Of a stretch of DNA of 64,000 nt, positions 45,127 through 48,862 are shown piece by piece; positions within the stretch are counted from its first letter, which is position 1, and every line of letters begins with the position of its first letter. The stretch is from Methylobacterium sp. FF17 (GTDB lineage Bacteria > Pseudomonadota > Alphaproteobacteria > Rhizobiales > Beijerinckiaceae). The notes beneath the pieces were generated by a model. It was not told the DNA's origin. It was given only the letters and a program-made list of their open reading frames with translations, and ran no database searches. Location of the stretch: positions 3,984,001 through 4,048,000 of the forward strand of contig NZ_CP107532.1 of assembly GCF_025813715.1 (NCBI RefSeq), written 5' to 3'. The translations under genes and the position numbers were made by a program.

Positions 45127-45915
45127 ATGAGCGTCGTCGATCTCGCGCGGTTCATGGACGATCTCGCCAACGCCTCGGGGCAGGCGATCCTGCCCTTCTT
45201 CCGGGCGGCCTTCGGCATGGACGACAAGGCGCGCGGTCATGCCGCCTTCGACCCCGTGACCGAGGCCGACCGGGCGGCGGAGGTGGCGATGCGCGGCATG
45301 ATCCGGCGCGCCCTGCCGACCCACGGCATCCTCGGCGAGGAGTTCGGATCGGAGAATCTCGACGCGGAATGCGTCTGGGTGCTCGACCCCATCGACGGGA
45401 CCCGGGCCTTCATCGCCGGCCTGCCGACCTGGGGCACGCTGATCGGCCTGACGCATCACGGCGCGGCCGTGCGCGGCCTGATGCACCAGCCCTACCTCGC
45501 CGAGCGCTTCTCGGGCGACGGCGCGAGCGCGACCCTGCGCTCGCCGCGCGGCACGCGGCCCCTCTACACGCGGCGCGGCACGGCCCTCGACCAGGCCATC
45601 CTCGCCACCACCGACCCGCGCCTGTTCGCGGACGGCGCGGAGCGCGAGCGCTTCCTCGGATTGGAGGGCGCCGTCCGGCTCTCCCGCTACGGCACGGATT
45701 GCTACGCCTACTGCATGCTGGCGGCGGGGCAGATCGATCTCGTGGTCGAGGCCGGCCTCAAGCCCTACGACATCGTCGCGCTGATCCCGATCGTCGAGGG
45801 GGCCGGCGGCGTCGTGACGACCTGGGACGGCGGCCCGGCGACGGGGGGCGGACGGATCGTGGCATCCGGCGACCGCCGCCTGCACGAGGCGGCCCTGCGC
45901 CACCTCAACCCGTAA
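45127..45915 (+). CDS. hisN: Histidinol-phosphatase (inositol monophosphatase family)
   Basis: A 262-residue Mg2+-dependent phosphatase. The ATG follows AGGAGGAAAGGGCCG. Motifs: DPVTEADRAAEVAMR, ILGEEFG, the metal site VLDPIDGTRAFIAGLPTWG and KPYDIVALIPIVEGAGG. The 'GTRAFIAGLPTWGTLIGL' wording is typical of the HisN type, which performs the penultimate step of histidine synthesis. The 3' end overlaps the convergent hydrolase gene by 11 bases. Confidence 0.9.
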   Translation: MSVVDLARFMDDLANASGQAILPFFRAAFGMDDKARGHAAFDPVTEADRAAEVAMRGMIRRALPTHGILGEEFGSENLDAECVWVLDPIDGTRAFIAGLPTWGTLIGLTHHGAAVRGLMHQPYLAERFSGDGASATLRSPRGTRPLYTRRGTALDQAILATTDPRLFADGAERERFLGLEGAVRLSRYGTDCYAYCMLAAGQIDLVVEAGLKPYDIVALIPIVEGAGGVVTTWDGGPATGGGRIVASGDRRLHEAALRHLNP

Positions 45916-46897
45916 GGCTCAGGCCTCGATCCCCCTCTCCGGCGCGCTCGGCCGCCTCGGACCCCGGCATGAAGGCATCGAAGGCCGCCCAGAAATCCTC
46001 GCGGATGCCGTCGCGCTCCGACAGGATCTCGTGGCGTGCATCCGGAAGCACGAGGATGTGCCCGGCCCGGAGCCCACGCGCGAAGCGCTCGGCGGTCCGC
46101 GTGCCGCAGACCGGGTCGGCGCCGGCGGCCACGATCAGGGTCGGTACGCCGATCCGCCCCGGCACGCTCGGGTCGGCGAGGCGCCGCATCGCCCGGAACG
46201 CCCCGGCGAGCCAGGCGATGCTGGGATCGCCCACGGCGCCGGCCCCGACATCGCGCGCGGCCGCCGCGTTGCGGGCATAGCGCTTCGGGTCGCGGCAGAG
46301 GCGGTTGTTCGGATAGGGCTTCGTGGCGATCGAGACGGCGGAACCGAACGGGACGTAGTGCCGCCCCCGCCCCAGCGCCTGGAGCACCCGGGCGAGCAGG
46401 GCCGCCCCGGCCGGCCAGCGCACCATGCGGATCGACAGCATCGGCGCCACGGTCACGAGGCGCCGGAACGGAAGCCAGCCGTCCAGGGCGCCCGTGAGCG
46501 CCACCGCGCCCCCCATGGAATGCGCCAGGCCCAGGTGCGGATGCGGCATGAGAGGGTTGAGGATGGTGTCCTCGATCGCCTTCAGGTCGCGGCGGTAATC
46601 GTCGAAATGCGCCACGTGGCCCCGGTGCGGATCGTCCACCTGCCGCTGCGACTCGCCCTGGCCCCGCCAGTCGAAGGCCACCACCGCGAAGCCGCGCCCC
46701 CGCAGGTCGGCGATGGTCTCGTAGTACTTCTCGATAAATTCGGCCCGCCCCTGAAGCAGGCAGACCGTTCCCTTCACCATCCGGGTGGTCGGGCGCCAAT
46801 GGGCGGCGCGCAGTTCGATGCCGTCCTCGGTGCGCACGGCCTTGAGGGCCCCGCCGAGGGGAACGGGATTGTCGGGCGTGGAACGCAGGGTCAGCAT
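45905..46897 (-). CDS. Alpha/beta hydrolase, lysophospholipase-like
   Basis: A 330-residue hydrolase. The oxyanion/strand region is GTVCLLQGRAEFIEKYYETI, the nucleophile elbow LAHSMGGAVAL (Ser), the acid lies in LIVAAGADPVCGTRTAE and the catalytic His in LPDARHEILSERD. This matches the monoglyceride lipase/lysophospholipase (PldB-like) group. Substrate probably a monoacylglycerol or lysophospholipid. Divergent from hsp20. Confidence 0.87.
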   Translation of the reverse strand: MLTLRSTPDNPVPLGGALKAVRTEDGIELRAAHWRPTTRMVKGTVCLLQGRAEFIEKYYETIADLRGRGFAVVAFDWRGQGESQRQVDDPHRGHVAHFDDYRRDLKAIEDTILNPLMPHPHLGLAHSMGGAVALTGALDGWLPFRRLVTVAPMLSIRMVRWPAGAALLARVLQALGRGRHYVPFGSAVSIATKPYPNNRLCRDPKRYARNAAAARDVGAGAVGDPSIAWLAGAFRAMRRLADPSVPGRIGVPTLIVAAGADPVCGTRTAERFARGLRAGHILVLPDARHEILSERDGIREDFWAAFDAFMPGSEAAERAGEGDRGLSLTG

Positions 46898-46950
46898 CGC
46901 GAAGAGCTCATGGTCAGGGTCTCAGGTGACGGAAGCAGACAAAAAATTCG

Positions 46951-47090
46951 ATCCTGGGGGGTGAGGAGGCTCTTGCGAGGCTGAAAGTGCCCCCCGATAT
47001 CACGGGAGCACCGGCCAATACGGCGGTGCGACAGGTCCGGCCCTCGGGCGGACCGAATATCAGCATGTTGCTTCTTACGGAGAATGTGTG
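46951..47090 (+). promoter_or_regulatory. ROSE-type RNA thermometer in the hsp20 5' UTR
   Basis: Four consecutive stem-loops precede hsp20: GGGGGG/CCCCCC (46956-46961 with 46990-46995, extended by ATC/GAT), GCACCG/CGGTGC (47008-47013 with 47024-47029), GGTCCG/CGGACC (47034-47039 with 47049-47054), and a 3' hairpin that hides the Shine-Dalgarno. In the last one CTTC (47071-47074) pairs with GGAG (47079-47082) around TTAC, then G47070 bulges and CATGTT (47064-47069) pairs with AATGTG (47083-47088). The TTGCT with bulged G opposite the GGAG is the defining ROSE feature. Melting on heating would free GGAG eight bases before the ATG. Confidence 0.82.
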
Positions 47091-47564
47091 ATGCGTCAGT
47101 TCGATCTTGCTCCCCTCTATCGCTCCACCGTCGGTTTCGACCGCCTGTTCTCGGCCCTCGACCAGTATGTCAGCGCCGATGCAGCCCCGACCTACCCGCC
47201 CTACAACATCGAGCGCACCGGCGAGAACGCCTACCGGATCACGGTGGCGGTGGCCGGCTTCACGGACTCCGATCTCGCGATCGAGGTCAAGGAGAATGCG
47301 CTGACGCTGAAGGGCGAGCGCAAGGCCGATGCCGGCAAGCCCGCGGAATTCCTGCATCAGGGCATCGCGGCCCGCGCCTTCGAGCGCCGTTTCCAGCTCG
47401 CCGACTACGTCCAGGTGACGGGTGCGGCCCTGGAAAACGGTCTCCTGCACATCGACCTCGTGCGTGAGATTCCGGAGGCGAAGAAGCCCCGCCAGATCCA
47501 GATCGCCACGGCTCGGGCGCAGAACGCCCCTGTGATCGAGGGTTCGGTCCAGCAGGCCGCTTAA
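47091..47564 (+). CDS. Small heat-shock protein Hsp20
   Basis: A 157-residue alpha-crystallin-domain chaperone that holds unfolding proteins. It has FDRLFSALDQYVSADAAPTY, PPYNIERTGENAYRITVAVA, the core VKENALTLKGERK, IAARAFERRFQLADYVQV and the conserved ALENGLLHIDLVREIPE. It resembles rhizobial HspA/IbpA class A proteins. Expression is expected to be heat-controlled by the ROSE element directly upstream. Confidence 0.95.
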   Translation: MRQFDLAPLYRSTVGFDRLFSALDQYVSADAAPTYPPYNIERTGENAYRITVAVAGFTDSDLAIEVKENALTLKGERKADAGKPAEFLHQGIAARAFERRFQLADYVQVTGAALENGLLHIDLVREIPEAKKPRQIQIATARAQNAPVIEGSVQQAA

Positions 47565-47591
47565 TCACGCGCCTGACCGCATCGTGTGGAG

Positions 47592-47622
47592 CGCCCCGGC
47601 CGACAGGCCGGGGCGTCTTTGT
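47592..47622 (+). terminator. Rho-independent terminator after hsp20
   Basis: CGCCCCGGCC (47592-47601) pairs with GGCCGGGGCG (47606-47615), loop GACA, followed by TCTTTGTT. Confidence 0.88.
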
Positions 47623-47702
47623 TCATGGCCTGTACGTTCGTGGCATCTGCCGCGCCATCGCGTGAGGCCGGGCGGAGCGTTGTGGGAGCGTTGTGGTTGC
47701 GT

Positions 47703-48112: not shown

Positions 48113-48571
48113 TCAGACGTCGCCGAAGACCAGTTGCCCCTGCGGGCTCGGACGGCGCGCGGACACCGCCGCCTTCCCACGCTTCGCCGACGCCTTACCG
48201 GAACTCCGCTGCGTGACCGGGCGCTTGGGCTGGGGATCGGCTCGCATGCGCGCCTTCGCCTTGTCCCGAGCGACCGCCTCCGGGGCATGCGGGTCGTCGT
48301 CGAGCCACTTGCCGCGCTTGATCACCTCGTTGACCCGGCCCTGATTGACGCCGACCTTGAAGGCGATCTCCTGCTGGGTCATCCCGGTGGAGGCATGCAG
48401 TTCCAGGATCGCGCGGGCGAGATCCGGCGTCATCTTCTGGCCGGTGAGGCGGCGGGCCGGCTTGATCGTCCGCGTGGCCCGGTCGCGGTCGCGCAGGCGC
48501 TCGAGGAGGGCGAGGGCCATGTGCATCCCGTGCTCGCGCAAGGACTCCTCGAATTCCTTCAACGTCGCCAT
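48113..48571 (-). CDS. Small HTH DNA-binding protein with basic tail
   Basis: A 152-residue protein from ATG 48571, which has GAGGA eight bases upstream; ATGs at 48580 and 48586 are alternatives. After a helical N-terminus (MATLKEFEESLREHG) comes a helix-turn-helix at about 65-90: MTQQEIAFKVGVNQGRVNEV. The C-terminal 50 residues are Lys/Arg-rich with Pro, then QLVFGDV. It is probably a DNA-binding regulator; target unknown. Confidence 0.68.
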   Translation of the reverse strand: MATLKEFEESLREHGMHMALALLERLRDRDRATRTIKPARRLTGQKMTPDLARAILELHASTGMTQQEIAFKVGVNQGRVNEVIKRGKWLDDDPHAPEAVARDKAKARMRADPQPKRPVTQRSSGKASAKRGKAAVSARRPSPQGQLVFGDV

Positions 48572-48862
48572 CGTCGGCATCCTCATCGCCGCAGGGTTCC
48601 GAGACACCGGAACCACGGCTGTTCCATCAACGCGATCGAGACTCCAGGGTTGCGCCCGGAAGAACCAGGGTTGAGCCTGCCGGCACGGCCTGACAACTGG
48701 CAAGACCCGTCATCCACCGGTATTCGCGCTCGACTCGGCTCCGGTCCCGGCACTGGCCTTTCGCGAAAGATCGCCAAGGCTTACCGCGCGCGCCACGTGG
48801 TCAGCGGCCCGCCATTCGGGTAAACCGCCGGTCCCGCCGTGGATGTCGAGGAGTTCCGCCCG

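Follow-up and report, generated by a model that had tools for sequence, protein, structure and literature searches.

ROSE elements and the hsp20 leader of Methylobacterium sp. FF17

ROSE-like elements are described (PMC3669281, PMC11342760) as leaders of small heat-shock genes in which a U(U/C)GCU motif pairs imperfectly with the Shine-Dalgarno (SD) sequence in the last hairpin, leaving a bulged G. ROSE1 of Bradyrhizobium japonicum hspA, the founding member of the Rfam family RF00435, has four hairpins according to PMC3669281; the same source describes the short ROSE-like elements of Pseudomonas ibpA, with two hairpins, where leaders with deduced sigma-32 promoters give heat-dependent translation. 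In rhizobia, small heat-shock genes that carry a ROSE element are reported to be rpoH-dependent (PMC3989490), and the combination of a promoter layer with a thermometer layer is known from both settings. ROSE-G, as presented in PMC12857270, lies upstream of ABC transporter genes; it has a CUGCU motif, and the anti-SD strand of its SD hairpin contains a bulged G, with a second bulged G opposite.

The window, a stretch of 64,000 nt from Methylobacterium sp. FF17, carries on its plus strand, like all window features below unless stated otherwise, a gene for a 157-aa small heat-shock protein (hsp20, 47091–47564; Pfam HSP20, 1.8e-19), the ATG of which was found in 37/37 aligned leaders. Its SD sequence GGAG (47079–47082, 8 nt upstream of the ATG at 47091) is masked by pairing in the predicted fold. 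The masking structure is a hairpin at 47064–47088, in which UUGCU (47068–47072) pairs with the SD. It comprises ten pairs, three of them G-U, and one bulge (G47070): C47064-G47088, A47065-U47087, U47066-G47086, G47067-U47085, U47068-A47084 and U47069-A47083 lie on the outer side of the bulge, and C47071-G47082, U47072-A47081, U47073-G47080 and C47074-G47079 on the inner side. Masking of GGAG by TTGCT with a single bulged G, over ten complete pairs including G-T wobbles, had been read by eye in the initial annotation, and precisely this hairpin was recovered in the minimum-energy fold of 46941–47100, together with five outer pairs that cover the AUG.

That fold has an energy of −64.8 kcal/mol, and 5/200 shuffled sequences were equally stable. 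The stability of the SD hairpin by itself is unremarkable, with 27/200 shuffles folding as well; the claim for it rests on conservation. Of the 1490 ATGs in the window, counted over both strands, 11 satisfied a scripted rule for a bulged-G hairpin between U(U/C)GCU and the SD, among them the hsp20 start itself, and 2 did so when at least eight pairs were required; at hsp20 loci of the order, the rule was satisfied in 79/80. The occurrence of this hairpin before hsp20 is more than chance. Extension of the hairpin by pairing of 47058–47062 with 47089–47093 over the AUG (47058–47093) was considered as a further part of the conserved element and rejected, as its bases are unpaired in 17 to 31 of the 37 leaders, depending on the pair.

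Compared with the described definition, the leader has the U(U/C)GCU–SD pairing in its 3'-most hairpin, an anti-SD strand with one bulged G (G47070), a position in the 5' untranslated region of a small heat-shock gene, with transcription as predicted from the promoter, and three conserved hairpins, where two to four are required. By the literature definition it is ROSE-type, ordinary in kind and firmly supported, and the hsp20 mRNA leader is very probably an RNA thermometer of this type. The identity proposed in the initial annotation is thereby supported, the defining features being both present and conserved (37 leaders; 79/80 hsp20 loci).

The small heat-shock gene, the bulged-G SD hairpin and the presence of upstream hairpins are shared with ROSE1, and the SD motif, along with the arrangement of a deduced sigma-32 promoter plus a thermometer, with Pseudomonas ibpA (PMC3669281); the number of conserved hairpins, three, differs from the four of ROSE1 and the two described for ibpA. 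The bulged G in the anti-SD strand is common to the window leader and ROSE-G as presented in PMC12857270, whereas the motif (UUGCU instead of CUGCU) and the single bulge set the leader apart. Within the same genome, a second hsp20 gene (G000:C1:166028-166453) is similar in that CACGUUGCUCGUAGGAGGAUGUGG precedes its start; it differs from the window gene in its upstream hairpins, and the proteins are 55% identical. A third hsp20 match of the genome is preceded by UCGCU words at distances of 142, 74 and 57 nt, but two folded stretches contained no ROSE-like hairpin, and neither RF00435 nor the genus covariance model described below (R1) gave a match.

Predicted promoter, probable leader start and conservation within the genus

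Orthologs of the window HSP20 protein were found in 37/37 genomes of the genus searched, including that of the window, and their leaders were oriented to the coding strand and aligned (n = 37). All 37 leaders contain CTTG exactly 23 bases upstream of C(A/G)ATAT, while the intervening bases vary. The corresponding window sequence, CTTGCG-N16-CCGATAT, with a predicted −35 element at 46972–46977 and a predicted −10 element at 46994–47000, is close to the RpoH1 consensus of S. meliloti, CTTGAA-N15-16-CCTATAT, as quoted in PMC4843759. A strict RpoH-type pattern was present at 23/77 loci of the order with enough upstream DNA, compared with 0/821 control stretches; 11 of the 23 belong to Methylobacterium or Methylorubrum, and outside these two genera the count was 12/66. 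A simple scan of 46880–47700 revealed no sigma-70 promoter-like sites. The promoter upstream of hsp20 is therefore predicted to be of the RpoH (sigma-32) type, and its use by RpoH would be expected. By eye, no CTTG...CGATAT promoter was seen in the 150 nt examined upstream of the second hsp20 gene.

The intergenic region is common to hsp20 and a divergent alpha/beta hydrolase gene (Hydrolase_4, 45905–46897, minus strand). Downstream of hsp20, an intrinsic terminator-like hairpin lies at 47591–47616 (one found versus 0.5 expected in shuffles), and a 159-aa ORF on the minus strand (48113–48592) has a weak match to sigma-70 region 4 (20.6 bits; cut-off 24.1).

Four stem-loops had been counted in the 5' untranslated region at the outset. 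The last three were retained, and the first (46950–47001), which folds on paper with 17 pairs, was rejected as a part of the thermometer: it spans the −35 and −10 elements of the conserved promoter, so that it is to be regarded as promoter DNA, and the 36 other leaders retain a mean of just 37% of its pairs. For these reasons, the leader probably starts near 47006, as judged from the position of the −10 element (47006–47090, start ± 3 nt), and has three hairpins. The RF00435 alignment also begins at 47008.

In the SD hairpin, the bulged G47070 is invariant in 37/37 leaders, nine of the ten pairs are standard in all of them and the tenth is standard in 26/37; the variable pairs exchange U-A for U-G, G-U for A-U and U-G for C-G. 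The two upstream hairpins are consecutive and nearly invariant, each with a CCGGCC/GGCGG stem and a bulged G. Hairpin 1 (47008–47029, bulged G47014) is paired in 100% of alignment cells and contains two pairs in which both partners are changed; hairpin 2 (47034–47054, bulged G47040) is paired in 97% and has one such pair. A common stem of this kind distinguishes the leader from RF00435 ROSE elements. The first hairpin of RF00435 does contain an unpaired G at the corresponding position.

For the whole structure, outer pairs included, 87.3% of cells were paired, compared with at most 48.1% when the partners were slid. Cells changed on both sides amounted to 27, a number that 0/500 shuffles reached (mean 11.8), and neither the covariation score nor the percentage of paired cells was reached by any of the 500 shuffles. 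Two of the five covariation measures were indistinct from shuffles: 4 pairs had changes in both partners, a count reached by 33/500 shuffles, and there were 16 further pair types, reached by 448/500. Compensatory changes in related leaders, which the initial annotation had suggested looking for, were thus found together with wobble exchanges, in these 37 leaders and among the hsp20 loci of the order described below.

Most CCGGCC...GGCGG columns of the two upstream hairpins are invariant in the 37 leaders, and their bulged G is kept. This would also be seen if the leader were conserved for a trans-acting factor, an RNA-binding protein or a small RNA, recognising the CCGGCC/GGCGG hairpins, with the SD hairpin being secondary. 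Beyond the genus, however, the upstream hairpins vary, as judged by eye, while U(U/C)GCU is retained, and the unpaired G in the first hairpin of RF00435 likewise argues against such a factor, which we consider highly improbable. For a ROSE-type thermometer, the two stable GC-rich hairpins would probably serve to prevent misfolding of the leader.

The motif across the order and the Rfam model

At the level of the order, U(U/C)GCU was found not more than 45 nt from the start in 79/80 hsp20 loci. A search of the family gave matches in 56/60 genomes, and among the 54 genomes besides G000 and G008 the motif was present in 48/48 leaders examined (28 plus 20, where 6 of the 28 were identical to earlier loci, so that 42 were new). 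Agreement of the motif pairs and the bulged G at 80 of 80 loci in the hairpin selection is by construction, as the selection rule required them.

The single exception among the 80 loci, L084 (L084:1479-1500), reads AUGCA[G]CUUC AAA GGAGUGCAU; CA stands in place of the motif's UU, the opposite bases have changed to match and the bulged G is kept. RF00435 gave no match on this leader. A pattern search for hairpins of the L084 type was positive in 3/397 genomes of the order, with 1 for the reversed control pattern; one of the three matches precedes an hsp20 ORF (L159, G410:C1:3534032-3534051, minus strand), and the other two do not. The compensated CAGCU variant with a retained bulge, as predicted from these leaders, occurs in at least two genomes (L084 and G410).

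At the pair formed by the second base of the motif, U/A was counted 27 times, U/G 42 times, C/G 46 times and C/A once among 116 rows, some of which are near-duplicates, and when the requirement for this base was dropped, 115/116 pairs were standard, the remaining one being C/A. The pattern looks like covariation, but a tree test was not significant once relatedness was counted; with only 3 supported independent pairs, it is indistinguishable from shared descent.

A covariance-model search, which had been named in the initial annotation as a check, gave a divided result. RF00435 aligned to the window leader over model positions 1–94 and kept the SD hairpin in register, but the score was only 18.7 bits (cut-off 45; E 0.88 on 211 bases), and the leader was absent from the matches both in a scan of 15 kb and in a whole-genome search, where the second hsp20 gene scored 45.7 bits. 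By score, the window leader therefore falls outside RF00435. None of the 33 places exceeding the cut-off in the genome searches coincides with an ortholog of the window gene. On ten loci of the order, four of them from Ensifer/Sinorhizobium, RF00435 produced one match, at 34.2 bits and below the cut-off, and no match up to E 10 in the four Ensifer/Sinorhizobium leaders. The RF00435 model is narrow.

The relation was also determined in the opposite direction, using the covariance model R1 built from the 37 same-genus leaders only and run over 98 loci. R1 matched 16/16 loci fetched through RF00435 matches at 19.1–32.3 bits, with the best off-target match at 18.3 bits; these 16 loci represent 15 distinct places (L008 and L136 are the identical place), comprising 12 of the 33 RF00435 places over the cut-off plus 3 at 43.0–44.0 bits. 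Of 77 other hsp20 leaders, including 11 from the same genus, two of which are identical around the start to R1 training rows, 65 were matched at E up to 10 and 60 exceeded the 18.3-bit off-target best; stem length in the 12 missed leaders is 5 to 8 pairs. In genome-wide searches, the best R1 match was the ortholog leader in 25/25 same-genus genomes, an expected outcome for genomes whose leaders trained R1. With the stricter filters of these searches, only 9/24 over-cut-off RF00435 places in the genomes searched were recovered, and the second hsp20 gene of this genome was not among the matches. The leaders of the genus and Rfam-positive ROSE leaders are in a reciprocal profile relationship.

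We also considered, tentatively and as a reading that is rather unlikely to hold in full, that Hyphomicrobiales hsp20 leaders might constitute a large ROSE branch mostly invisible to the Rfam model, with a core reducible to the bulged G plus CU, a natural CAGCU variant in two genomes (AUGCA[G]CUUC / GGAGUGCAU), and upstream bulged-G hairpins that might act as a functional module beyond folding guides.

Predicted heat response and significance

At growth temperature, the last hairpin would pair UUGCU and its flanking bases with the SD and block ribosomes. Upon heat shock, this weak stem, which contains three G-U pairs and has G47070 bulged out beside the SD, would unzip and translation would start; upon cooling, the SD hairpin would close again. 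Given the predicted RpoH-type promoter, heat would therefore act twice, through a rise in transcript followed by a rise in translation.

Simulation with ViennaRNA, which omits non-canonical pairs and proves no switch, yielded probabilities of 0.017 at 25 °C, 0.025 at 30 °C, 0.047 at 37 °C and 0.077 at 42 °C for the four SD bases of the window leader to be open. The SD is hence about 92% paired even at 42 °C, and a sharp switch is not predicted. With a slightly different SD definition, the median SD opening between 25 and 42 °C rose from 0.0037 to 0.020 in the 37 leaders and from 0.0037 to 0.017 in eight paralog leaders fetched via RF00435 matches, of which five exceeded the cut-off. In simulation, the window leader behaves like Rfam-matched ROSE leaders. 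The SD was open in 3/37 simulated leaders (L015, L124 and L125), and for L124 and L125 the script probably chose the wrong GAG. When the 5' part of the leader was shuffled, the median opening was 0.39 at 30 °C, and the SD was as closed in 19/300 shuffles.

The modest simulated opening of the window leader from 25 to 42 °C, together with an RpoH-type promoter kept in 37/37 leaders, is what would be expected if the hairpin acted as a constant translational brake at all temperatures and heat induction came from the promoter alone. A mere brake would not need the bulged G and the weak pairs, which are nevertheless kept in the 37 leaders. Moreover, the RF00435-matched paralogs have the same simulated profile, and the sigma-32/ROSE-like leaders of Pseudomonas, as described in PMC3669281, do confer heat-dependent translation. 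A constant brake is, on these grounds, improbable, and heat opening with translational control is the favoured reading for the window leader.

The analysis adds one well-supported RNA thermometer, with the CAGCU variant as a small new point. No title on the window leader was present among the literature matches listed, and the leader may already be in print, for example in the subscription literature. As a natural double change, the variant is suited to asking which segment of the motif determines melting temperature. Nearly all sampled orthologous hsp20 leaders of the Hyphomicrobiales keep the ROSE core, and RF00435 lifts none of those tested over its cut-off; surveys that use Rfam only therefore undercount ROSE elements. 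A heat-shock evolution experiment with Methylobacterium reported mutations in hsp20 loci (as described in PMC13170269), which makes such leaders candidate targets.
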